Below, piece after piece: positions 2,344-27,479 of a DNA stretch of 52,578 nt. The position numbers and the translations under genes are program-made. The stretch's first letter is position 1. Every line of letters starts with the position of its first letter. Source of the stretch: a virus; the IMG/VR virus record IMGVR_UViG_3300025141_014116, positions 1 to 52,578 of that record, one strand, 5' to 3'. The notes below the pieces were generated by a model that saw only the letters and a list, made by a program, of their open reading frames with translations, searched no databases and was not told where the DNA came from.

Positions 2344-3447
2344 TTAATAGTCTAGTCTAACACGAAACACCACTTCATCAGTCTTATTTTTCTCCACCGG
2401 GGTGCTACAAGCGAAAGTTGCCATGCATACCTTATTGGCATTGTAGAGGCCGCCGCCGGTAATATAGGCCCGGGCCATCGAGGTAGCAGAGGTCTTAACA
2501 CGAATTTGGCTGGCACTCAAATAAGTTGGATTACTTGAATAATTAAATTCATTGAAGTGAGCCCTACAATAATATATTGTTGAATTAATCTGAGTGGTGT
2601 TATTAAAAGAAATATTATACAAACGATTACGCAAAGCCGAACAACATCCTGAAACAGATGCACTTACCAATAACTTGCTTACGGTCTTATAGTTATTGGT
2701 GCCGCCGCCGGCTCCATTGTTGCCAATATAATTATCAGCGCCGGGGGTTGCGGGTACGTTGGATCCGGGGTCGCCCGGTTTTGGGAAGATACTGGCTGTC
2801 AGCACACATAAGCCTGTCTGATAAAAGATAAGACCCACACCAGATCCTGCAATAGCTGCAGAACCGGAGTACAGAATAGCATATTCGCCAACTGGTGAGT
2901 TATCTCTATACTGGCTAAGGGCTCCAAAGTCAGAAATTGTTTTTACCTTAGTGGGCGCTGCAACAGTGTTTCCCGTGAGAACTTGGATTGTAAATGACTG
3001 TTTCTGAATTTCATCCTTCGTCAGCAGTCGGGCGAAGTTAATAAAAAACACGTCTTTCATCTTTGTCCCGGTGGCGTCGCCCTTATTATCAAACTGCTTA
3101 ATATTGCCGCTAATGTCCGGATAAAGGTGAGTCAGGGCCATCTGATTGTAAATATTTAGCTTGTACTCTTCCATGTTTTTGCCGATGGAGCCCGAAAGAG
3201 AGGATTTCGGTGATATCCCCACAGTCAAATCAAAAATATGATTGGCCGACGAACTTAAGTAGGGATAATCATAAACCGACTGAAGCATTTCTTTACCAGG
3301 AACGTAGTCTTTTATGTTGGTGGTAAATACGGAAGCTTCGCTGTATGTACCGGAGGCGATTGTTCCCGTAACGGGTACCGTCTCGTGGAGGAAGTCCTCC
3401 ACCATATTAATATCATTGGGTCCAAGTTGTTTATAAGTGCTGGCCAT
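2344..3447 (-). CDS. Tail/virion structural protein, paralog of the 447-aa neighbour
   Basis: A 367-aa protein opening MASTYKQLGPNDINMVEDFL and ending VVFRVRLDY. The N-terminal half contains YDYPYLSSSANHIFDLTVG and a segment with KDVFFINFARLL, a pattern I recognise from virion structural proteins of large marine phages. The C-terminal part carries GLIFYQTGLCVLTASIF and ITGGGLYNANKVCMATFACS, which match the ends of the protein encoded just downstream. It is beta-rich, low in charge and without an enzymatic motif, consistent with a fibre or baseplate component. The start at 3447 follows a purine-rich stretch (minus-strand ATAGGAGTAGAAA), a good ribosome binding site. Confidence 0.72.
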   Translation of the reverse strand: MASTYKQLGPNDINMVEDFLHETVPVTGTIASGTYSEASVFTTNIKDYVPGKEMLQSVYDYPYLSSSANHIFDLTVGISPKSSLSGSIGKNMEEYKLNIYNQMALTHLYPDISGNIKQFDNKGDATGTKMKDVFFINFARLLTKDEIQKQSFTIQVLTGNTVAAPTKVKTISDFGALSQYRDNSPVGEYAILYSGSAAIAGSGVGLIFYQTGLCVLTASIFPKPGDPGSNVPATPGADNYIGNNGAGGGTNNYKTVSKLLVSASVSGCCSALRNRLYNISFNNTTQINSTIYYCRAHFNEFNYSSNPTYLSASQIRVKTSATSMARAYITGGGLYNANKVCMATFACSTPVEKNKTDEVVFRVRLDY

Positions 3448-13265: not shown

Positions 13266-16200
13266 TTATTCATCTCCAAACCAATCCGGGTCGATCAAGG
13301 GTGATGAACCCAAGCCGGGCAGCGCTGCAGCTGTCGCGGTAAAGTTGCTGGTTGGAACTGCAGGTGCAGTTGGGATATTCTGCGGTGCTGCGGAGGCTGC
13401 CGTCGGACTTGGGGGCGCCGAGGGGGGAGCATCGTCACAGTCTCCGCCGCGGCCGGTGTATGTAATACTTTCATCTATCTTAACTAGTTCGACCAAGGAT
13501 AACCAATCGTACGGCCAGTTATAAGTATACTTATTTCTCGATCGTGATCTCGTATCTGTCTCTGTTATGAGTTGAGGCTCGCAGGGATCGTCTATTAATT
13601 CTGTCGTATACTGCTCACGGAAAGACTCAAAATTAGATTGGGCGCGCTGTTTAACTCTAAATACGAGCCATCTTAAGTCCTCCCGTAACTTGCGCGTTGT
13701 TTTATTAATCAATTCCCCAGCGCCAATGGGATCAAGCTGAATTCGCGCGTCGTGTTGGAAAACAGCTGTACAGGGGCTCGCAGTAGGATCCCGGAATTTT
13801 TGTGGTAATACATTTTGCCAGATATCAGTTAGATCTTGTTTAGTAAGATCCACGTGGAATTCAAAAACATACATAGCTACCTTTTCTTTTTCAAAAAGCG
13901 GCGGGAATATGTAAGTCTTGAGATGTTGATCGATCTCTGGCGCCCTCCTCGCGGAGCGGGGGAGCTTAAAGAACTTTCTTCTTCCGTCACTAGCAAGAAT
14001 AAACGGCACAGCTATGACGGCTTCTTTTACCCTAAGACCTTCACGTACTGTTCCGAGCCTTTTTTCAACTCCCTCTTCAAATCCCACGAGGTCTGCTAAA
14101 GAGCGCGGGGCCCGGTAGGTTTGGCCGGCTAAAGTTACAGATGTAGGAGTATCAATTGATGCAAACACTCCATTATGCCCCGTCGGAATTTGACCATATT
14201 GGTGCCACATTCCCACACTAGTGAGTCGCCGGTCCGCGTCTGCAGCCATAGGAGTGGCGGATTGAGGCGGTAGTGTGACGGAGGAAGCTATATCTGAGAA
14301 ATCAAGGACGGGGCATTCCCACTTGGGCGCTATTTCCCATACAACTTCGAGATCAGTGGTGCCTTTAATTTTAGCCTGTCTTATTGTATTTAAATGATAA
14401 CTTTCTGATAGCTGTTGAGCAAACCAATAGCCCACAGCACCAGTATGGTAATTATCTGACTCATAGTCGCGACTATAAATATACTTAGCATTACTCAATA
14501 AGTCACCTAAGGTAGGAGCGGCTCCGAAGGAAGCACTAGTCAAAATAGTCACAGAACTCTTCCCGTAGAAATATGAAGGAAGGTTGGGCGCCTGAGAAGC
14601 AGAGTGAACTATCGTGCTTGTGCCATTAATGCCGCCTGCCATGCCGCCAGACGCGTAATAGCTGGCGGAGGTTATAGAGGACCAAATATTCTTATTTCCC
14701 GCTGAGCCGCCGCCCTGATTTGTTAAGCTAATGCGCGCGTTGGCTGCGGAGCCGTTGACTGTACCAGAGATATTCATGGTAGCAGAATCATGAAGTTTAT
14801 TAATGAAATTGGTAGCGGTGGTAGCGGCGTTTTCCGCTAGCAACTGAAAATCGGTACCAAGGCTCGGAGAGCCCTTCATAGTGAAGGTCGTCGTCGTTGC
14901 GCTACCGTCAGTGCCCCCATCTCGCAGAGTAAAGCTATCACCAGATGTAAGAGAATATCTAGCCATGGCTCCGCCGGCCATACCATGCACCTTCGAGAAT
15001 CGATTTAGGCCTGGGTATCCGAGCGAATTGGTGACGGCAGTAATCGCGACATTACCATCGCTGCCAGTTGTCCCATTGGTCACCACCACTCGGGACGTGT
15101 TCAAGACTGTACTAGGTTCATGATTTGTTGCCGTAGCTGTAACATTAAATGCAGCTTGTGCATTAATAGCAGCTGCTAAGTTCGTTCCCGTTTGCATTGC
15201 ACTACTAGTAATTAACGCCACCATCTTATCCTCGGCGCCTTCTGCGCAAAGGCCGGCCTGTTGCTGAAGGTAAAAGTCGAAAGCCGTAGTACTTCCGTCC
15301 GTGCCTCCATCAGATATAGTATAAGCATCGCAATTTAACGAACCAGTCCAGGAGCCGGTGGCTCCATTGGCGAAGCCGGATTTTGAGGCGCCGGCGAAAG
15401 TGTATTCAATACCGTAGTTGTAATCAGGGCCGGCGGTGCTCTGAGTGAGCTGAACGTATTCGGTACCTCCCTTATTGCATGTGCCGCCAGTCTTGACAAA
15501 CGCGGAATTTGTAATGGCGGTGAACAAATTCTCGCGCTGAGTGGTATTGCTCGTTCCTACATTAACATCCCATTCGGTATTTTCCTCATTAATTACGGCT
15601 GTTGGGCCGTCGCTCAGAATAAAAGTATAAACGGTTCCGCTAGAGCCGGTGAAGTACATCCGTTGCCCGGCGACGTTGTCAGCGTAGCTCCATATTCTTA
15701 CATAACCATTAGCTTTAACGCCTGGGCCGCGGCTGGCCGTAAGTAAGATGTAGCCGCTTGCAGCTTTGCCGGCAATTGCGATACTACTAGTCAGATCAAT
15801 GTAGCCGGATGACGAAACTGCGCTTGTTGTCTGTGCGCTGCCGCTGTCTAAAACAAATGGTGCACCAAAAGCTGTTGCGCGATTATACATCTCGAAATTA
15901 GTACGGTCTGCGCGGAGATCCTTGCCCAGCGTACGTCTTAAATTAAATGTCATAGCGTAATGCTGACCGGCGATGACGTCTTCTTTAAACTGGCCTTCCG
16001 GCTTCGAACGAAAAACTGGGCGCTGAGATTCATCGATAAACCAATACATGCTGGAAGCCAAAAAGTTATCAATAGCTAAATTATATAACGGGCTGGCTTG
16101 TCCGGACCACCGTACCTTATTAAGTTGTGAGGTGGTGCCCGCAGACTGGGATAAACTAGCAGATGCAAGTCCATTATCATAAAAAGATCCTTTTGTGGAG

Positions 16201-19200
16201 CTAGAGCCGCTCACCACGTTCGCGGAAAATCCTATCGCGGGACGATACAACGCCTCAAATGGAACACGCTGGAAGTTATAGAAATTATCCGACCGGTTGG
16301 ATGAGGCTGAAAGAAGACTAGAGCTTCCATAATTCACGATTCCTTCGGGGAAGGTGGTATTTCTACAATTAGCTGAAGCTGAGGCTCTAGGCTTGGAAAT
16401 ATCATATAGCTTTCCGGCTCTCTCGTGGGCAGTACAAATATGGCTTCCTACGGCGATACCAGATTTAACTGAATTGAGTAGGAGGGACGTCCATGGTTCC
16501 AGGAAGGCGCGCCAAGTTGCCCTATAGGACGTTTCTTTGCCGTCAGCGTCGGTCCCGTTAAGGGCGACGTCGTCGGTGATCGACTTAGAAAACAAGGTGC
16601 CAAGTTTAAGAGCATATTCTGCCGGGAAGAATCCTTCATACGGAAGTGGTTTTACTAAAGCGGTGCACATCAAGCCAAACTGAGATTTTTCTAAAACAGA
16701 GCCGTCAACCAGTTCCGCTGATTCTGCAGTATCAACGAACTTAAAGAATTTCATGAAATCTGAGTTTGCGTAGTCTCGGAAAAAGCCGTCTTGGGATGAG
16801 TTTGCATACTTGGAACCCGTAATCTCAAACCAATCATCGATATTATCGAGAGTAAAGAAGTCTTCTTTATTGGTCTCATAATATTCTTCTAAGTGTTCAG
16901 AGATGCGGAATTCTGGAACCAAGGAGTGGTCCTTTCCTATAAGCATAATATTCTTACTATAAACTTTATAGGTTTCGTGAGGAATGCGAGTATGATAGTC
17001 TGATGTGCCGGCATAGGTGCCTGACAATTGAAATTCAGTTCCGCCGCCGAGGGCCAAGTTCCCGTACGTGTCTGAGCCCACAGGCACTTTCCAGGCATAG
17101 GTCACGGCGCCAGAGATAGAATTTCTCCCGGCTTTGCCGTAGCGGCTATACGAATTTTGTAGTTCTCCATCGCCCATTGAGGCGCCAGGGTTGATTCCAG
17201 GCAAAATCGGAACAACTGTTTTAAAGTTAACATGTGCATCGAGTGGCCACGCGCTTTGGCTCAGAATAATTTGTCCTTGTGAATTGCGAGTAGTAAAGCC
17301 CTGTTGAATAGGGATGGATGTCCTCAATTTACGGCGATCGTTCCAATATCTATCAATACTAAAGTTCTGTCGTAAGAATGTGCGACCCAAATAAGAATTA
17401 TAAGCCGCAGGGTAGACGCGCTGGCGGTATACCAACGAGATTCCTGAAATAGCAGCCCCCAAATCACTATCGTTATTACTTTTGAATATCAAATTATTAA
17501 TACGATTTACGTATAAATCAGCAGCTGCAGGGTTAGAACTATTAGGTACGCGGCTGTTCAAGTCATAATCAGCGAAATTAATCAACTTATTCCCATACGT
17601 ATTGGTAAGAACCACATTCGAATTTGCGGCGCCGTACTGTACACTGGCGTCGGCGGCGTTTGTGGTCTGCTGAACCTCGGGTGTGAAAGCACTAACCTTC
17701 ATGCGATGAACAATTGGATGTTCTTCCGAATACATCGCGGGCTCGACATACTGGCGGAAGGAATTTCCTCGTGTAGAGTTTATTTCTCTATCGTATGCTG
17801 TTTGTGTAACGATAGTAATAAGATTATTTTTCCTATTATGCCTCATCACGGGGCTCTCGGCCACCCTCATTTGTTTCCAAGAGGGCCACTGATATGGACC
17901 GTTGCGCATAAGCATCAAATGATGAAAAATATCTCCTATCCTAACGCGGCGTTTAAGCTTCTCATCGCGGGCGAGAATCCGATAAGCTGTGAGATTTTTT
18001 GTGAGTGGGTACCCTAACGTATTGATCGAGGATGTTATCGGATCATAGAGGAGCAAGTTTAGATTATCAAAGTTGGTTTCGAGACGTGACATCCAACCGC
18101 TGGCCGGGGATTCGTCAATCTCTACTGCCGGCGTTGTAGAAGAGGTTATCACCGGCAACGTTGGTATAAAATATCCGCCGCTTAGGTGTGAGTAGCCAAA
18201 TATAGAGGCTCCCCGCTGTAGGGATGATGTTACCCACATATATCCCTGGGTAGACCGTGGGATCGGATGTTGGATATACCAGTTATCATACCAGGATGAA
18301 GTAATATAACTCGTAGCACCAGTTTCTTTGATTCGCTTTCGAGGATTCATGTTAACTTTGTGCCAGGAAGCAGACAAGCGCGTCTGGGTAGGACTCCCGT
18401 AAACAGCATCAAGACCATACTGGCCACAGTGGAGGGTCTGAAGTTGCTTAAGGCCTCGCTGGTGGTTAATTTGATCCACCACTCTTATGCTTCCAGTTAT
18501 AGATTTGTCTGGAAGGACGCTGGTTGAGCCGCTAGTGGTACCGGGATATCCGTAATCACGAACTCGTAAGTTTCGATATGGAAGTACACTATAGACCGAT
18601 TTCTCTTCATGGGGTGGTTCCAGATACCCGCGTGATACAGATTCGTAAGAGCCGGGTGACCTAAACAAGCAAACCATCACTGTCTCATTGGAGTTGGGAC
18701 CATCACGGTTTGGCAGTTGATAGTCTAAGTTGCCTCCCACATTAGGTGTTTCGGTAGTGGGAGTTAAAAGCGGGAATCGGCCACGAGTGGCTAATGTCTC
18801 GGGATAACTAGCAAAACTGAAATTTGTGCGTTCGAAAAACAAATCGTTAGTAGTGCGGCCCGGCGCTTGAATAACTTGCAAATTTTGATTATAATTGCCA
18901 ATACGGCCGTGAGCTATTGTACCCGAGAGTCTGGTGCCTAGTGACTCAGTTGTTATTAAAATATTACTAATATTAACCGGCCGCTTGGTTCCAACATTGC
19001 GCCACAAGTTACCAACCGGAGTATTTGGATTTTCAGTGAATCCGGTGCCAGCCGTATAAGACGTAAAGTTGGGAGGCAAAAGGCCGATATTGCGTCCCGA
19101 TATAAAACCCCCTCCTGAGGAGGAGACCTTCTGATATCCTAGGCGTATCAGCCAACCTTCTTGACGCGTCGTGGCCATTGGCTCAACGTGTCGATACTCG

Positions 19201-22200
19201 CGGCCGCCGACGAATCTTTCAGCAAAGGGGCCTTGGAGGGGTTTCCGGCCGTCATTACTGATTAAATCATCATGTAAATTAGTAAGAATAACATCCCTCT
19301 TGAGCTCGTAATTACGTGGGCCTGAGGAGTTAAAATCCGCAATCGATGAAGAATACATACTAAATGGAGCACCAACGTTACCATTGCCTCCCCATGGAGA
19401 TGTGAATGATGATCCGCTTTCATTTGGGGCCCCCAATAATGAAAAGCCTAGACGCGGCGAAGGAGTGGGGATAGTCGGACTATAGCGGGGCCTCTTTTTA
19501 AACCGCTGAATATTGCTCCCCGTTGCTGGGGCCATCATCACCTTTGCCGGAGCATTCGTCGGCCCAACCTTTCCCCCAAAAGGTCTTGTTTCTTCAAAAA
19601 CAATGCCTACTTGTTTGTTCGGAGAAAAGTTAGAGCCGGGGCTGAGAGGTGTACGCAATCGAGCGCTGATTCGATAGGGGCGATATGGAATTCGTACGCC
19701 ATATTCAATTTTCCTCTTGGCCTCCGGGACGTTCTTCTTATCTTCATCTTTACCCGGGTGGGTGTGCGGCGGCTTCCATGGTGTGTCCTGTGAGTGGTGA
19801 CCCGGCTTATCGGGCGAAGGGCTGTCGGATTCTGGGCTCGGGGCGCCACCACCGCCGGACGGCGCGCCGCCAGGGTGGAAGGGGGGATCCGGCAGGTTTA
19901 TGACCTCCGGCGGCGTTTCGACACTAGGAGGGGCGCCAGCGCTGGCCGGCGCGTTGGCATTGTTGTTGCCTGGGTTTGTCGTGGCGGGGCTTGTCAGGGT
20001 GGTCGTAAAAACGTCGGGGTATCTAACAATTCTGGGGATACGATGCTGGTATTTGTTCCTCTCTAATATATGACTTTCTATAGTGGTCCGGATTGATTCA
20101 CTAAAATCTGCGCCGGCGGGAACAAGCTGTTGCAAGATGCTTGTGAGAGCAGAGTCAAACCATTTATAAAACTCAATATAGTGATCAAGGTCCGGGATGT
20201 TGCCAACACGTAAAAAGAAGTTCTCTCGTAAAATGCGTAAGTCCTTATATTCGCGGCGGTACTTATTAACCGGATTACCTACTAAATTATTAAAATCTAC
20301 AATTTCAGAAAACATTTTGAGCATATTTTCCGAGATAGTCTGGTACATGCTCTTTTCGATGGCAAATTTAAAATTGATGGGACGTGAGTCTCGCTTAAAA
20401 ATAATATCATCCTGACGATTGAGTACCTTAATCATATCCATCGAGGTAAGCTGTTCGAAGTTTAAGAGTTCGGCTGCCAAGACATAATCAGGATCTATGA
20501 CTTGTGTAGAACTGGCTGGAAATCCATACCCTTGACCTGTATGTTGCGCTCCCAGTAAATTGCCTAATAGGCCATATTGAGAAGCCTGGGCTGCAACGGA
20601 GCCAGAGGAGAAGTCGGGAACTGTAAACTGACCCGAGGCGTTAGAGCCCGTAACGGTTTCAAAATCCCAGTTAAGAGCTAAGGTCTGATTTTGTTTAATT
20701 TCGGTGTTTTGCTGGGCGGCCGGTCCGTCAAACAGATATGCATTATGACTTGGGTTCTGGCGCCCATAGTTGTGTACATCTTGACCATGCAGCAGAAGGT
20801 CGGTTGCTGTAAGTTCATCAACCCAATAGCGACAAAAGCCCGGGCGTGAATCCGTACGAGTCAAAACTGCACCGGTGAAATCTTGGCGATGGGCGCCGAC
20901 ATAAACACGAGTGGAGCCAGTTATAAAGCCATATCCCACCGTGGTCGGGTTGAGAGACGCAGTAACGCTGAAGGAGTTAATCTGTGTTCCAGCATCTACT
21001 TGAGATCCCTTAAATTCTATAGTATAGTTAGGGGGTGACGAACCTGTAAAATTCCATCCCTCGCGGGTGCGAGATGGCTTAAGCGTAACAGCTAAAATCC
21101 AATTACTATTGCTGTATACATCGTCGAAATAAGATGAACTAAGTAAAGGAATTACTCCGCCGGCGGAAGAGGTAAGAACGAATCTAGCAGCGCGCGAGTT
21201 CCTCTCGTTGCGAACCGCATAAACTTGGAAATTAGCGTTATCCGGAGTATTCCATGTTAATGAATTCGGAGAGACTCCAAAACGTCCAACGGTGTGTCGG
21301 CCGAATAAAGAAGCGCTTAAATATCTAAACTCTTGGTTGCTATAGCCTTCGTCATATACCTCCGGCTTGTCAGGAAACAGAACATAGGTCTCAAGAGTAG
21401 ATGCGTAGCCTCCGGTAAGCTGATTGGATGCGCTTAAATAAGATACTGAGTTACTGTTTGAGCTCGCAGTTTGTTGGAACACAGTGCTATCAAAGCGCTG
21501 TTTATGATTAAAATCAACAAACGTTTTCTTAACTGAGTTGAGTTCCCTGTTGTTCCGGATGCGATACTCGATGTTATTGCCATAAACATTAATCTTGTAA
21601 ATTTCATCGTCGACACCGAAGCATCGGAGAACATTTCTAAAGGAGCGCAAAGTTCCCTTGCTCTTAAAAATGCTACTTAAATTATTGTAGATATTTTGAT
21701 AAATAGCATTTTTAATATCTGTGAGGCTCTTCTGATAAACTATGCTCTCACTTCGGTCGCCGAGTTGCTCAAGAATATCTGCATCTAAAAATAACTCTGG
21801 TACCAACAGACCTTTGGCCTCTAAAAGACGGTTTGCGATCGTATTAGGTTTGCGAGAGCCGCTTACATATTGGATTGCATGAACTTCATTCAATTGTTGA
21901 ATTTGTACATAGAGAGTATCCAGATAGCTACTCATAATTTGAGTTAACTTCTGTAGCTCGTTGCCGTTTTGACCGTCTGCCTCTTGTATCCACGATGGGA
22001 AGGTTGTAAGAAGCTGCGCTGGGTTATTTAAATCATGGGCCGAACCTGTTAGACCTAGGCGCGTTATCGTAGCCTCAACTGCCGGATGGGTACTATAAAT
22101 AATTGGATCTTTAAACTCAGCAGTGGCCGCCTCACTTTCGACAATAGCTGAGCCGGTGTTACGCGAGCCGTCAGCAGAGTAGCCAGTCCAGGAACCATTG

Positions 22201-24140
22201 GTTACTCGACCCGAATAATCTAGAATTGTAGTATCATAGGAAGTAGTGCCAGTAATCCCTTCATTGAACTTGTAATAGACCCCTAAGGTGGTATTTGCCG
22301 GATCTGTGTTGGTTCCTCCTCCTACTTGTGTAAACCAATAGCGCCCTATATCCTTGGAGCTTCGCTGTGTTTTCCAGTAACGGAACTCATCGAGAGAGGC
22401 CGATAGTTTACCGGAATAGGCAGACGCTATGGGAGCAGAAGAAGAAGGGGCGGCGGCAAGGGCACCAATGGTGGCCACAAGGCCCCCTTGGATTGGGCCG
22501 ATAGCGGACGCTGTTAGAGTAGTCAGGCCAGTACTCACATATTGTGTTTTATTCAAATTGCCATCAATATAAAACTTAGCTGTAATCGTGTTATTAAGGG
22601 GAGAATATGCCTGAATTTGATCATTTTCAATCTTGCCGCTGATGGCGAAGGCTGTCGGGGCGCCATTTACTAAGCTCGGTAATTGATTTGTAAAAGAGGG
22701 TACGTTTGTCCCGTCGAGTTGGTCGCGGGGGCCGTTGCCGAGTGGATACCAGGCGGTAAGATAATCTGCGGCACTATGACCCATAAGATCGTCGGGAACG
22801 CCGGAATTATATATTTCCTGGGCTTCTGCCAGGGAGAGTTCTTTTTTCCAGATACTTGCATTGTTAAGATTCCCGCCAAGGGAATATTGTAACAGATTGG
22901 CACTCTTACCGATCGTCGACGCCTGGTCGCCGCCCAGGAGGCCAGGGGCGCCGGCGGTCGAGGTGGAGTCGTCAGCGAGGACGCCATTAACATAAATATG
23001 TGATGCTCCGGCGATGCCGCCAGCATATGTAGCAACGACATGATACCATTCGCCGGTTGCAAGATTGACAGAACTCTTCCGCCAATTGGTGGCGGCATTT
23101 TTGAGGGTGATCTGGCCAGTGGCTGTGGTGATATAGAGCCTTCTGGTTCCGCCGCTATAGCCAAAGGACATCAAGTCCTCGGCGACTTCAGTAGAAGATC
23201 CATCACGATAGACCCATATTGATAAGGTGTATGGCTTCGCTGCAGTGCCGGCCCCACCTATAGAGGCATTCCAGTCATCCGTAACTCCAATTTGAATACC
23301 ATCATCTATTCCATCAAAATTAACAGATTTTCCTTCCGTTGTATTTTTGAGCGAGACAGCATAATGTTGCCACTGATCATTTGCCACCGAAGCTGTGGTG
23401 ACAGTGTTCTGCGCCAAAGACACCGATTGAAATCCCGTGGTGCCCGAAAGCACTGTGAGGCGCCATGGGCTAGCTGCAGCCGATGTTAACTCTAATCTAA
23501 AGCGACCGTACTGTGCTGAGCTCGTTAATTCATTATTCCACAGATCGAATATGACTTCTTTCTGAGTTTTAGTCGGGTCATAGGCTGCTTTACGCATCCA
23601 AAACTCTAACGTTGTACCGGTGGCCAAATTAAATTCTAGATTTGATTTACGATTTTGGGATGGTTCCCAAACATTGGCGGTTTGTGTGTGAGGCCCTCCT
23701 CCTAGGCCCGGGCCACCCTTAATAAAAATATATTCGGTGCTGGCAGGTAATCCGTAGCCCTGTGCAGCTGACGAAACCGCGCCCCAGCCTCCATAAGAAA
23801 AATTAATATACCCCGTGGTACGTGGATATTCATTATCAAAAACATGCTGATCTAAATACGAGCCACTGTTCCTCCATGCCAACCGTTCGTATAAAGAGCC
23901 GTCATATGGATAAGAATTATAAATGTACTTACAAGCATTAAGATAATATTGCTCTGCCGAGCCATATTGAGCAAACTCTTCTGGATGTGAAAAATTGAGA
24001 TTGGGCACAAACCGTTTCTCATTGACAATATCGGCCGCGTGAAATCTCTCGGACTCGACATTATTGCCAATTTGATCGGCTGTTTTGTTAGCAACTGTCT
24101 TAACAACAGAAACCTTTTCGAATAAACCTTTAAGTGTCAT
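13266..24140 (-). CDS. Giant LamG-domain tail protein (3624 aa)
   Basis: One uninterrupted 3624-aa frame, the largest gene of the window. Residues about 165-268 and 517-605 form the two halves of a LamG/concanavalin-like beta sandwich (TTLEFWMRK, WQHYAVSLKN, then TAKFYIDGNLNKTQY and SASLDEFRYW). A complete second LamG (about 270-515, with VNFDGIDDGIQI, YTLSIWVYRDG, GEWYHVVATYAGG and IYVNGVLADD) sits between them. A Pro/Gly-rich hydrophilic linker spans about 1380-1475. Around 2763-3175 lies a block with three related repeats, two of them marked DGGTDGS. The C-terminus is a Pro/Ala-rich tail. LamG domains bind glycans, so this is probably a host-recognition or baseplate-periphery protein. The basic opening (MTLKGLFEKVSVVKTVANKT) may anchor it. 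It lies 10 nt downstream of the DNRLRE-like gene. Confidence 0.78.
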   Translation of the reverse strand: MTLKGLFEKVSVVKTVANKTADQIGNNVESERFHAADIVNEKRFVPNLNFSHPEEFAQYGSAEQYYLNACKYIYNSYPYDGSLYERLAWRNSGSYLDQHVFDNEYPRTTGYINFSYGGWGAVSSAAQGYGLPASTEYIFIKGGPGLGGGPHTQTANVWEPSQNRKSNLEFNLATGTTLEFWMRKAAYDPTKTQKEVIFDLWNNELTSSAQYGRFRLELTSAAASPWRLTVLSGTTGFQSVSLAQNTVTTASVANDQWQHYAVSLKNTTEGKSVNFDGIDDGIQIGVTDDWNASIGGAGTAAKPYTLSIWVYRDGSSTEVAEDLMSFGYSGGTRRLYITTATGQITLKNAATNWRKSSVNLATGEWYHVVATYAGGIAGASHIYVNGVLADDSTSTAGAPGLLGGDQASTIGKSANLLQYSLGGNLNNASIWKKELSLAEAQEIYNSGVPDDLMGHSAADYLTAWYPLGNGPRDQLDGTNVPSFTNQLPSLVNGAPTAFAISGKIENDQIQAYSPLNNTITAKFYIDGNLNKTQYVSTGLTTLTASAIGPIQGGLVATIGALAAAPSSSAPIASAYSGKLSASLDEFRYWKTQRSSKDIGRYWFTQVGGGTNTDPANTTLGVYYKFNEGITGTTSYDTTILDYSGRVTNGSWTGYSADGSRNTGSAIVESEAATAEFKDPIIYSTHPAVEATITRLGLTGSAHDLNNPAQLLTTFPSWIQEADGQNGNELQKLTQIMSSYLDTLYVQIQQLNEVHAIQYVSGSRKPNTIANRLLEAKGLLVPELFLDADILEQLGDRSESIVYQKSLTDIKNAIYQNIYNNLSSIFKSKGTLRSFRNVLRCFGVDDEIYKINVYGNNIEYRIRNNRELNSVKKTFVDFNHKQRFDSTVFQQTASSNSNSVSYLSASNQLTGGYASTLETYVLFPDKPEVYDEGYSNQEFRYLSASLFGRHTVGRFGVSPNSLTWNTPDNANFQVYAVRNERNSRAARFVLTSSAGGVIPLLSSSYFDDVYSNSNWILAVTLKPSRTREGWNFTGSSPPNYTIEFKGSQVDAGTQINSFSVTASLNPTTVGYGFITGSTRVYVGAHRQDFTGAVLTRTDSRPGFCRYWVDELTATDLLLHGQDVHNYGRQNPSHNAYLFDGPAAQQNTEIKQNQTLALNWDFETVTGSNASGQFTVPDFSSGSVAAQASQYGLLGNLLGAQHTGQGYGFPASSTQVIDPDYVLAAELLNFEQLTSMDMIKVLNRQDDIIFKRDSRPINFKFAIEKSMYQTISENMLKMFSEIVDFNNLVGNPVNKYRREYKDLRILRENFFLRVGNIPDLDHYIEFYKWFDSALTSILQQLVPAGADFSESIRTTIESHILERNKYQHRIPRIVRYPDVFTTTLTSPATTNPGNNNANAPASAGAPPSVETPPEVINLPDPPFHPGGAPSGGGGAPSPESDSPSPDKPGHHSQDTPWKPPHTHPGKDEDKKNVPEAKRKIEYGVRIPYRPYRISARLRTPLSPGSNFSPNKQVGIVFEETRPFGGKVGPTNAPAKVMMAPATGSNIQRFKKRPRYSPTIPTPSPRLGFSLLGAPNESGSSFTSPWGGNGNVGAPFSMYSSSIADFNSSGPRNYELKRDVILTNLHDDLISNDGRKPLQGPFAERFVGGREYRHVEPMATTRQEGWLIRLGYQKVSSSGGGFISGRNIGLLPPNFTSYTAGTGFTENPNTPVGNLWRNVGTKRPVNISNILITTESLGTRLSGTIAHGRIGNYNQNLQVIQAPGRTTNDLFFERTNFSFASYPETLATRGRFPLLTPTTETPNVGGNLDYQLPNRDGPNSNETVMVCLFRSPGSYESVSRGYLEPPHEEKSVYSVLPYRNLRVRDYGYPGTTSGSTSVLPDKSITGSIRVVDQINHQRGLKQLQTLHCGQYGLDAVYGSPTQTRLSASWHKVNMNPRKRIKETGATSYITSSWYDNWYIQHPIPRSTQGYMWVTSSLQRGASIFGYSHLSGGYFIPTLPVITSSTTPAVEIDESPASGWMSRLETNFDNLNLLLYDPITSSINTLGYPLTKNLTAYRILARDEKLKRRVRIGDIFHHLMLMRNGPYQWPSWKQMRVAESPVMRHNRKNNLITIVTQTAYDREINSTRGNSFRQYVEPAMYSEEHPIVHRMKVSAFTPEVQQTTNAADASVQYGAANSNVVLTNTYGNKLINFADYDLNSRVPNSSNPAAADLYVNRINNLIFKSNNDSDLGAAISGISLVYRQRVYPAAYNSYLGRTFLRQNFSIDRYWNDRRKLRTSIPIQQGFTTRNSQGQIILSQSAWPLDAHVNFKTVVPILPGINPGASMGDGELQNSYSRYGKAGRNSISGAVTYAWKVPVGSDTYGNLALGGGTEFQLSGTYAGTSDYHTRIPHETYKVYSKNIMLIGKDHSLVPEFRISEHLEEYYETNKEDFFTLDNIDDWFEITGSKYANSSQDGFFRDYANSDFMKFFKFVDTAESAELVDGSVLEKSQFGLMCTALVKPLPYEGFFPAEYALKLGTLFSKSITDDVALNGTDADGKETSYRATWRAFLEPWTSLLLNSVKSGIAVGSHICTAHERAGKLYDISKPRASASANCRNTTFPEGIVNYGSSSLLSASSNRSDNFYNFQRVPFEALYRPAIGFSANVVSGSSSTKGSFYDNGLASASLSQSAGTTSQLNKVRWSGQASPLYNLAIDNFLASSMYWFIDESQRPVFRSKPEGQFKEDVIAGQHYAMTFNLRRTLGKDLRADRTNFEMYNRATAFGAPFVLDSGSAQTTSAVSSSGYIDLTSSIAIAGKAASGYILLTASRGPGVKANGYVRIWSYADNVAGQRMYFTGSSGTVYTFILSDGPTAVINEENTEWDVNVGTSNTTQRENLFTAITNSAFVKTGGTCNKGGTEYVQLTQSTAGPDYNYGIEYTFAGASKSGFANGATGSWTGSLNCDAYTISDGGTDGSTTAFDFYLQQQAGLCAEGAEDKMVALITSSAMQTGTNLAAAINAQAAFNVTATATNHEPSTVLNTSRVVVTNGTTGSDGNVAITAVTNSLGYPGLNRFSKVHGMAGGAMARYSLTSGDSFTLRDGGTDGSATTTTFTMKGSPSLGTDFQLLAENAATTATNFINKLHDSATMNISGTVNGSAANARISLTNQGGGSAGNKNIWSSITSASYYASGGMAGGINGTSTIVHSASQAPNLPSYFYGKSSVTILTSASFGAAPTLGDLLSNAKYIYSRDYESDNYHTGAVGYWFAQQLSESYHLNTIRQAKIKGTTDLEVVWEIAPKWECPVLDFSDIASSVTLPPQSATPMAADADRRLTSVGMWHQYGQIPTGHNGVFASIDTPTSVTLAGQTYRAPRSLADLVGFEEGVEKRLGTVREGLRVKEAVIAVPFILASDGRRKFFKLPRSARRAPEIDQHLKTYIFPPLFEKEKVAMYVFEFHVDLTKQDLTDIWQNVLPQKFRDPTASPCTAVFQHDARIQLDPIGAGELINKTTRKLREDLRWLVFRVKQRAQSNFESFREQYTTELIDDPCEPQLITETDTRSRSRNKYTYNWPYDWLSLVELVKIDESITYTGRGGDCDDAPPSAPPSPTAASAAPQNIPTAPAVPTSNFTATAAALPGLGSSPLIDPDWFGDE

Positions 24141-24150
24141 CTTATCCTAA

Positions 24151-25662
24151 TTATTCAGTAACCCTAAATTTAAACTCTTCAGGCTGTTCTATCCAACCTC
24201 CTATAGAGTCATTATAATAGGATAATTTAATTTTATACATATATCCGGCCTCCAAAAGCGACATGTCCAAGTCAAAGTAGTTGCCATCGCCATCATAGGA
24301 TAAGAAGGTGTGATAGGTGGATCCCGTTCCATAAGGAACAGCGGCAAATGTGTCCGTAACCCGTTTAATTGTATAGGACGCACTCGTAATAATGTCAGTG
24401 GGGTTTTTAGCTGTAGAGACCGTGTACACTGTTGGGCTCCAATTCTTGTCTCGAACAAAGAAGCGGAATCGAGAGGTATCCTTTCGAGAATAACTCTTCT
24501 TAAGATATACGGCGCTTGTTGCCTTATTAAAAGTAGGTGCCACGCCATAGCGAGGCATCAACTCTGGATATAAAGAGCCGGTAAAATATTGAGTAGTGCC
24601 AGAATACCATACATCAAACATGGCTTGAAGTGGAGTAGTGGACGCAGTGATACAGAGAGATGCTGAGTAGACGCCGCGGCTAACATATCCGCCCGTTACA
24701 TGAGTTTTTCCGTTATGCAAAAGCAATTTGGATCCGGTGGGGGCCGTGGAGCCAGAGTAAAGAGAAACGAAAATTGAACCTGTGCCCACTGCAGGAATAT
24801 TAACCAATCGCCCTTTTACGTAATTGTAATAATAAAGACGATTACGATTGTCGATAGCTGGCGCATTAGAGCTTGAATAATAAAAGTTTTCACGATTATC
24901 CATAGTACGCGAATCCCATCGTGCCTCTATTGTTGGTCTTTTAAAGAAGTATTGAGAAGATCGAGCTGAAAATCGTTTTGTATAATATGTGTCGATTGAG
25001 CCGACAGTGTTCTGAATAGCGCCACTGGTGTCGTTCCCCGTAGAGCTTGAATAGTACGCCTCAAGAGTATCAGGGAGCTTAATGATCAGTCCATTATTTG
25101 CCAGTGTGCCGGACATCCAACGCTCTACCGTGGGGGATATGTCTATTTCTAGATCCTCCGGGCCCTTAGCGAAGCTAGCTGAATATACCGGTAATGAATT
25201 ATAGTGTCCTCCAATGTCGGGAGAGGCAGCGGGGCCCCAGATATTACCCGCGGATCTCTTCATCCAATTAGCGGTACCTATATCACTATACTCTTCCATG
25301 TCGAGGCCAGTGCCCTCCGACCACGACTGTGAGACGGCATGAATATTGAGCGAAAAGTCTTGAGGCAGTGTAAAAGCAGTTTCTACATTAAACAGACGTA
25401 GAAAAAACGATACGTTTCCTGATGCGGGCAACGAGCCGGCCGTCCGGTCAGAAGACAAAGTTGCAATAGGAAACTGTACCAAGGTCCTTGCTAGTTCTTG
25501 TGACTTGCCTTTAGCTGACGAGGATGTCTGGCCAGATATAGAATAGACTTCGAGCGAGTCAGCATACCCCATATTGGAGCCCGTGCCGCGGGTCGTCAGT
25601 GTATAATCGTAACCATTGGTGATAATGGTGTCCTGGCTCGCGATATAGCGCCTGATTCCCAT
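24151..25662 (-). CDS. DNRLRE / CBM96-like virion protein
   Basis: A 503-aa protein. Its N-terminal 250 residues resemble the DNRLRE (carbohydrate-binding module 96-like) beta sandwich: RTLVQFPIATLSSDRTAG, then VSFFLRLFNVE, SQSWSEGTGLDMEEYSD and LEIDISPTVERWMSG. The last motif corresponds to the strand before the final Asn-Gly of such domains (here NNGLIIKLPD). The C-terminal half is beta-rich (VYSASLCITAS, TIKRVTDTF). Similar proteins lie next to gp6 in many large marine phages, in my recollection. It directly follows the gp6 gene with a one-base overlap, so it is probably a baseplate-proximal fibre or adaptor. Carbohydrate binding is inferred from the fold only. Confidence 0.72.
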   Translation of the reverse strand: MGIRRYIASQDTIITNGYDYTLTTRGTGSNMGYADSLEVYSISGQTSSSAKGKSQELARTLVQFPIATLSSDRTAGSLPASGNVSFFLRLFNVETAFTLPQDFSLNIHAVSQSWSEGTGLDMEEYSDIGTANWMKRSAGNIWGPAASPDIGGHYNSLPVYSASFAKGPEDLEIDISPTVERWMSGTLANNGLIIKLPDTLEAYYSSSTGNDTSGAIQNTVGSIDTYYTKRFSARSSQYFFKRPTIEARWDSRTMDNRENFYYSSSNAPAIDNRNRLYYYNYVKGRLVNIPAVGTGSIFVSLYSGSTAPTGSKLLLHNGKTHVTGGYVSRGVYSASLCITASTTPLQAMFDVWYSGTTQYFTGSLYPELMPRYGVAPTFNKATSAVYLKKSYSRKDTSRFRFFVRDKNWSPTVYTVSTAKNPTDIITSASYTIKRVTDTFAAVPYGTGSTYHTFLSYDGDGNYFDLDMSLLEAGYMYKIKLSYYNDSIGGWIEQPEEFKFRVTE

Positions 25663-27479
25663 TATGTAACACTCCCTTGTATGTCGCCGCCCGGGAATTT
25701 CAATTCAAAAATCACATCCACTGGGGCGCTGATAAAACGACCATCGACAGACATGCTCGCATCAAAATTAAAACTACTCTCGGAATACGGTGTCCCCTGC
25801 CGATGTAAAATAGCTACATCTAACACATCGACGACGCCCGGTACTCGATGCAATTCTTTATAAATATCAACAATTTGAAGGGACTCTCCTAAATCAAACC
25901 GGCGCCGGCTGTAAACATTTCGTAGGCGCTGGGTTGCCAAATTTACAACGTTGAACCGGTTCTCCTCATAATCTGCCACTATAGTAAAATTTATCCCAAA
26001 ATTCACCACGCGTGCGTCGCGAATATCAATTGTATCATTAACCATTTTATAGTTCGCGAGCCATGTTTTTAAGTTTTGTTTGATTGTCTGATTAGTCGTA
26101 GTGAAGAATCCCTTTTGATCGTAAGATATAACAAACATGTTTAAATTTCTTTTAAAAGAATTAAAATCCCTTTCAAAAGAACAGCGTTGGATTCCCCCAA
26201 AACTAGGAGGCATCGCGTAACTAATTGCCTTATAATCTTCTAAAGTAACGGCTCGATTTTGTGCGGCGAAATGACTATAAACACGCTGTTTAAGTTCGTC
26301 TACATTCGGGATAGAAACACTTCCAACGATTGGCTCTTCATTAGATACTTCCAATGAGTTCTGAACAGTGCCTATTTGGCCGGGATTTAAAGCTGTACTA
26401 TTCTTAAAGGCAAAAAGAGGAATAGCAACACCTGACAATTTCTTAGCGGCGACATTCACATCCTGGGCATCATTTAGTCGATAAACAATGGTGAGGCGTG
26501 TATTAGAAGGGCCCACTCCAAACTTGTCTGTACTAGTTAAATTAGTGGGATCAAAATCAGGTTGAGTAATATAGTCCCGGCCATGTAATTTTAAAACAAT
26601 TTTACTCGGGTCTACCACTGACTCGTTCGTTAACTCCTTTTCTGATCCGTACCCAAATTGAAGATAGGCCTGGTTGACCGTCTTCTCTAAAGTAAACCGT
26701 CGCGTGACCGGGATGGCCTTTAGGATTGATGGAGCGGAGTTTCGGTCTGCATTATTATTAATAATTGCTTTGAAAACGACTTCCTGGGCCAAATGATCAA
26801 CCTGATAATAACGATGGCCCTCTGAATCTGTAACACGGGTGATCTCTACGGGATTGGCAATATCGAGGAAGACTTTACGAAATTTTGAAAATCCGCCAAT
26901 ATCTACTTGTTGGCTCCTAAGCTGCCCAGAGATTACTGTGCCAGCGGACTTAACTGCATAACTAGTGGGCACCCCTGTTACGGAGTCGACTTTATCAACC
27001 ACTACGCGATTAGAGGTGACCGAAAAGTCTACATCATTGATTAAAGTAAATAGTTGGCCCCCCTGCGCAGTGAAGGTTGAGTTAGCTTTTAGAATAGGCA
27101 TATACGCCTGGTTTGGTGCGCCAGCACTGTCAGCCGGCACAGAAATGTAAAATTCAGCAATCCCTGTAGATGAAAAATCAGTTGAGTATTTATACCCCAG
27201 CTGCCGGGCGATTTTAACTACATTTTGATATTCCCCGGCAGTGTCTAAAAAACTTTCATTTAAATTGTAATCCAAATAGAATGATAGAACATCCCCCACG
27301 TAAGATACTGTGTCTAATACTAGGGAACCAAAGCCAGCAGTATTAAAATCTTGGTAGGAATCAGGATAATATCGCTTTACATAATCTAGTAAGCTAGCGC
27401 GGATTGATCCAAAATCTCGCCCCGCATAATTAATTACCTTTAGCTGTTTTGTGCTATTGTTTGCCCTATCATCTGCCAT
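25662..27479 (-). CDS. 6: Baseplate wedge protein, gp6-like (baseplate J family)
   Basis: A 605-aa protein of the T4 gp6/baseplate J family (T4 gp6 is 660 aa). The N-terminal segment (KVINYAGRDFGSIRASLLDY, then DFNTAGFGSLVLDTVSYVGD and LSFYLDYNLNESFLDTA) is diagnostic of this family in marine myoviruses. Later segments include VYSHFAAQNRAVTLEDYKAI and a C-terminal VDVIFELKFPGG. In T4, gp6 dimers link neighbouring wedges into the ring that drives sheath contraction. The gene lies just downstream of gp25, as expected for interacting wedge proteins. It starts at 27479 after a short 23-nt spacer. Confidence 0.92.
   Translation of the reverse strand: MADDRANNSTKQLKVINYAGRDFGSIRASLLDYVKRYYPDSYQDFNTAGFGSLVLDTVSYVGDVLSFYLDYNLNESFLDTAGEYQNVVKIARQLGYKYSTDFSSTGIAEFYISVPADSAGAPNQAYMPILKANSTFTAQGGQLFTLINDVDFSVTSNRVVVDKVDSVTGVPTSYAVKSAGTVISGQLRSQQVDIGGFSKFRKVFLDIANPVEITRVTDSEGHRYYQVDHLAQEVVFKAIINNNADRNSAPSILKAIPVTRRFTLEKTVNQAYLQFGYGSEKELTNESVVDPSKIVLKLHGRDYITQPDFDPTNLTSTDKFGVGPSNTRLTIVYRLNDAQDVNVAAKKLSGVAIPLFAFKNSTALNPGQIGTVQNSLEVSNEEPIVGSVSIPNVDELKQRVYSHFAAQNRAVTLEDYKAISYAMPPSFGGIQRCSFERDFNSFKRNLNMFVISYDQKGFFTTTNQTIKQNLKTWLANYKMVNDTIDIRDARVVNFGINFTIVADYEENRFNVVNLATQRLRNVYSRRRFDLGESLQIVDIYKELHRVPGVVDVLDVAILHRQGTPYSESSFNFDASMSVDGRFISAPVDVIFELKFPGGDIQGSVT

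Follow-up and report, generated by a model that had tools for sequence, protein, structure and literature searches.

This locus appears to encode one LamG domain lodged inside another, which raises two questions: whether the two domains are truly nested or only adjacent, and how such a pair came to be distributed as it is among related phages. The window analyzed here is the whole stretch of 52,578 nucleotides of the IMG/VR virus record IMGVR_UViG_3300025141_014116. Its 3624-aa protein belongs to a family of hundreds of members, and the homologs in IMG/VR contigs are about 2800-4300 aa long. A first-pass annotation had placed a full LamG domain at 22596-23333, interrupting an outer LamG domain after the strand WQHYAVSLKN, and had regarded it as a recent acquisition of a host-range protein.

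Profile searches divide this region into three segments (Table 1). Pfam Laminin_G_3 (PF13385) has two matches within residues 160-602 (4.9e-24). The inner domain covers nearly all of the 151-position profile at 66.9-67.9 bits and passes the cut-off of 27.6, and the N-terminal half of the outer domain scores 24.3 bits alone and 30.4 bits when considered with its neighbors in frame. A family-specific LamG HMM matches residues 157-268, 268-510 and 517-672 in turn, such that the outer domain is broken at HMM position 113/114 and picks up again there after the insert. In all carriers that could be resolved as N-half, insert and C-half, the split falls at about HMM position 110-115. The motif WQHYAVSLKN begins at residue 257, TAKFYID at residue 520 (window 22583) and DEFRYW at residue 584. 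The arrangement is therefore of the A1-B-A2 type, with an outer domain that is split once by a complete second domain and is continuous in insert-free homologs. The first-pass interval was correct within a few bases, and its refined boundaries are those of the table.

Table 1. Features of the window discussed in the text
Feature	Position	Strand	Remarks
3624-aa ORF	13266..24140	minus	giant, probably tail- or baseplate-associated protein; carries the nested LamG pair
Outer LamG, N-terminal part	23340..23675	minus	residues 156-267; Laminin_G_3 profile 14-110; family HMM 23-113; ends in strand WQHYAVSLKN
Inserted complete LamG and C-terminal tail	22593..23339	minus	residues 268-516; Laminin_G_3 profile 14-149; family HMM 2-228
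Outer LamG, C-terminal part	22125..22592	minus	residues 517-672; family HMM 114-246; opens with partner strand NTITAKFYIDG; includes DEFRYW and YYKFNEG tail
Conserved core right after outer LamG	21507..22406	minus	residues 579-878; backbone for tree
Three tandem copies of second ~110-aa module family	14679..15722	minus	residues 2807-2912, 2922-3036 and 3052-3154; iterated HMM
gp6-like baseplate wedge gene	25662..27479	minus	PHROG baseplate wedge subunit, 6.4e-19; context for virion location

We gathered relatives (loci designated L) by searching viral contigs with two queries. Querying with the nested region favors carriers, whereas querying with nothing but the conserved core that follows the outer domain is free of that bias and yielded the 80 best of more than 595 relatives. 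The insert is absent from the outer LamG in 69 of these 80 core-ranked relatives, which thus offer natural empty sites. Eight others carry a LamG in the same hairpin, L121 carries one a loop earlier, ahead of the WHHYAF strand, and L099 and L137 carry an unrelated ~110-aa non-LamG module in two further loops of the outer LamG. A LamG also occupies the hairpin in L034, a divergent locus from the nested-region search. The length of the gap separating the outer halves has three modes (57-75, 208-213 and 306-324 residues), with non-carriers in the shortest class and carriers in the longest. The uninterrupted outer domain matches Laminin_G_3 as a single domain (in L083, profile 13-150, 41.8 bits, 1.6e-10; in insert-free L088, profile 16-150, 29.7 bits). 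On these alignments, chance is excluded as the cause of the nested appearance, because so many relatives show a gapless outer domain and eight have a LamG in the same position. The possibility that all relatives carry the insert can be set aside, and the insert-free majority supports the view of a domain that is gained or lost. As a separate observation, the outer LamG of one relative is interrupted by a frame break (L009:7454-8112, with ORFs of 236 and 1377 aa) that is either a sequencing error or a real disruption; the core of the L009 contig is identical to that of L006.

We used two trees to examine the history of the nested pair. On a tree of the conserved core (residues 579-878, 125 rows), hairpin carriers are scattered and require ten changes, or nine without L034; with L034 set aside, an AU test rejects a single clade of ten carriers (p-AU 5e-47). 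Many carriers on this tree have an insert-free locus as their nearest neighbor (L085 beside L088, L146 beside L066 and L119 beside L093), and the window has L083/L022 nearby. The tree of the outer LamG, built from only about 164 columns with the insert left out, requires just two changes for nine carriers and does not reject one clade (p-AU 0.525), and 300 random labelings of it always required at least six changes. Core segments of equal length require 8-9 changes and the N-terminal residues 26-155 require 9-10. Pairwise identities follow the same pattern: in the flanks, 8-9 of the nine carriers are more similar to their insert-free sister than to other carriers, but this holds for only 3-4 of nine across the outer N-half and for one of nine across the outer C-half. 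Affinity to the insert-free sister thus drops across the outer domain and returns directly after it. Among parts of the outer domain, the C-half requires two changes, the N-half four and the first 60 columns of the N-half seven. Because those first columns need so many changes and the signal weakens toward the domain start, the left breakpoint may fall inside the outer LamG.

The simplest reading of these trees is that the outer LamG and its insert are exchanged as a unit. Since carriers lie apart on the core tree yet cluster on the outer-LamG tree, the nested pair behaves like a cassette, and we give a probability of roughly 0.8 to the interpretation that it is an optional cassette swapped between phages by recombination, with the outer LamG hosting exchangeable modules. 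Under this interpretation, a conserved LamG close to the N-terminal end of the giant protein would serve as the host for such modules. In the window phage, a second complete LamG sits in the hairpin between the WQHYAVSLKN and NTITAKFYIDG strands, and the outer domain is made of the two segments that flank it. The outer halves would travel with the insert when homologous recombination in the conserved flanks replaces this part of the gene. The insert would present a further ligand-binding surface that juts out from the outer domain, and in this way might vary attachment to hosts. LamG domains of this protein would, on this reading, bind host surface glycans, the insert would add to or change that binding, and exchange would track changing hosts.

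Alternatively, LamG domains might have been inserted and lost repeatedly and independently at a favored loop, the outer halves then converging to fit their insert with no exchange of a cassette. At least one clearly separate event did occur, since the LamG of L121 lies one loop earlier and groups as sister with a LamG that occupies a different site in a relative. Moreover, the L034 insert and outer domain are very divergent (about 30-34% identity), and the nine nested inserts do not form one exclusive clade (three changes). Part of the outer-tree signal, which is strongest near the insert, could also reflect convergence of the outer-domain sequence around the insert. Nevertheless, independent insertion alone does not readily yield only two changes on the outer-LamG tree where equally long flanks need 8-9, nor an affinity to insert-free sisters that disappears over the outer domain and returns immediately beyond it. 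We therefore consider it unlikely as the main explanation of the hairpin carriers.

A tandem pair of LamG domains, nested in sequence appearance only, would also be listed by a Pfam scan as two LamG stretches in a row, but the outer C-half restarts at the profile position where the N-half ended, and in insert-free relatives the two halves follow each other directly and form one complete LamG. The predicted structures contradict a tandem arrangement as well. An AlphaFold2 model of window residues 131-683, based on 77 aligned sequences, has a pLDDT of 78.4 and a pTM of 0.77, with the outer N-terminal part and the insert mostly at 85-95; the model of the insert-free relative L083 is of moderate confidence (pLDDT 68.7, pTM 0.75). 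The outer strands occur in the same order in both models, and only one hairpin is interrupted, by 251 residues: the L083 strands 127-137 and 140-147 correspond to 127-136 and 388-395 in the window model. Window strands 388-395, 398-406 and 452-459 likewise correspond to L083 strands 140-147, 150-157 and 199-206. The modeled inner domain matches BACOVA_03559, PAPP-A, PTX3 and other LamG/pentraxin structures (Z 14-22), and the L083 outer domain, in which the empty site is predicted to fold as a single LamG, matches PAPP-A, pentraxins and laminin LG domains in the PDB (Z 12-16), as expected of a concanavalin A-like beta-sandwich. From strand order, HMM coordinates and empty sites, rather than from measured contacts, we infer that the two outer segments pair with each other in the predicted fold. 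Profiles, insert-free relatives and models agree that a LamG lies within a LamG, as first proposed, so the nested pair in the 3624-aa protein is real and the tandem reading is very improbable. Although the window is a single record from a metagenomic contig, there is next to no chance that the pair is an assembly chimera, given a frame open over 3624 codons and at least eight other contigs with the same architecture and divergent sequences.

The proposal of recent acquisition was based on GC-heavy codons of the insert relative to its flanks. The insert (50.7% GC) is indeed richer in GC than the outer N-half (45.2%), but not richer than the outer C-half (51.0%), and 12% of equal-length stretches of the ORF (47.2% overall) are as GC-rich. 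Its codon usage is ordinary, with 36% of stretches deviating as much. The GC of the insert exceeds the gene mean in nine of nine carriers, and LamG modules of this family generally lie 2-3 GC points over their gene (86% of 120 modules are GC-richer). We therefore rejected GC and codon content as evidence of recent gain. Insert identity among carriers is about 31-63%, and no other module found exceeds about 42% identity to the window insert, which likewise does not indicate a recent arrival.

LamG modules are also variably present at several other sites of relatives of the 3624-aa protein. L142 differs from L111 by a clean extra LamG at about residues 1196-1448 (L111 1192-1202), on either side of which the two are 90% and 87% identical. 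No obvious direct repeat was seen at this site by eye, and the pair is well suited for a study of the insertion mechanism. The nested insert of L084 has as its nearest match the LamG at residue 2512 of L121 (53%), and the nested LamG of L121 is sister to the LamG at residue 1585 of L089 (47%, with a FastTree support of 99 that is itself rough). The second, ~110-aa module family has DGGTDGS-type motifs and no Pfam match. It is the same family as is nested in the outer-LamG loops of L099 (227-344) and L137 (242-361), and it occurs at other sites in L020, L107, L110 and L126. The stretch holding its three tandem copies in the window is nearly absent from most relatives in our first full-length alignment, in which loci were cut at ~3020 residues, a cut that partly lowered occupancy beyond that point; the loci were refetched with larger flanks.

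These patterns might tempt one to see the outer LamG as a dedicated docking platform, with ready-made lectin modules moved by phages of this lineage between permissive loops of the one giant protein, within and between genomes, by a site-biased process rather than by ordinary rare recombination and so diversifying attachment. We regard this stronger proposal as quite doubtful. The relatives do provide a natural series within one beta-sandwich (empty, with a LamG in the hairpin, with a LamG one loop away and with another module in two further loops), which allows one to ask how phages add attachment parts while old ones stay intact and which supplies natural templates for domain insertion into lectin scaffolds.

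Large phages are known to carry LamG3 domains on tail fibers and elsewhere on the virion (PMC7824862). Both the outer and the inner domain resemble the Laminin_G_3/concanavalin A-like LamG domains of phage tail proteins, but in this protein a complete copy is inserted into a hairpin of the other, and we found no description of LamG within LamG in the open-license papers searched. In an ECOD survey of domain insertions, 65.8% of events cross homologous groups, so about a third occur within one group (PMC13114784). The A1-B-A2 insertions of that survey share with our case a discontinuous host domain and an inserted domain; in contrast to them, presence and absence are visible here among many close relatives with natural empty sites, and several loops are used. 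Recombination is also known to swap domain-sized pieces of phage tail and baseplate proteins (PMC10684548). The shuffling of fragments is common to such mosaicism and to the present case, whereas what is exchanged in this family seems to be a nested pair, accompanied by traffic of modules between sites of one protein.

To judge from gene order, the 3624-aa protein is probably associated with the baseplate or tail, the gp6-like wedge gene lying two genes upstream (its match to Pfam Gp6-like_1st, E 0.006, is under the cut-off). With its LamG domains and this adjoining gene, the protein may reasonably be considered a host-range protein, as the first-pass annotation had it. By gene content, the window phage and its relatives are T4-like myoviruses, because the Gp23 capsid protein is found in large contigs of five relatives and the window has the wedge gene and an amidase gene; Gp23 has no match in the window itself, which is a genome fragment. 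A search of the window for the T4 gp19 tail tube, run without a positive control, found none. Matches in BFVD to uncultured marine viruses suggest a marine source. A tblastn search of INPHARED phages with residues 1-1280 gave no match, and the genome collection holds a few distant relatives in MAG contigs that are possibly misbinned phage DNA, so we make no host call.

The full 3624-aa protein had no match in Pfam or PHROGs, all matches coming from pieces of it. In a test of gp7-like or P2 gpI placement, the helical core at residues 664-983 gave weak Tail_P2_I matches in three of 50 members (best E 0.14), weak unnamed PHROGs and no significant PDB match. Residues of about 880-1160 (window 20660-21503) resemble by eye a further diverged LamG/ConA-like domain (YVGAHR, RYWVDEL), which neither Pfam nor the family HMM calls. 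Directly after the conserved N-terminal third, residues of about 1380-1480 form a proline/glycine-rich linker of variable length, and extra LamG modules of relatives are located near this junction.
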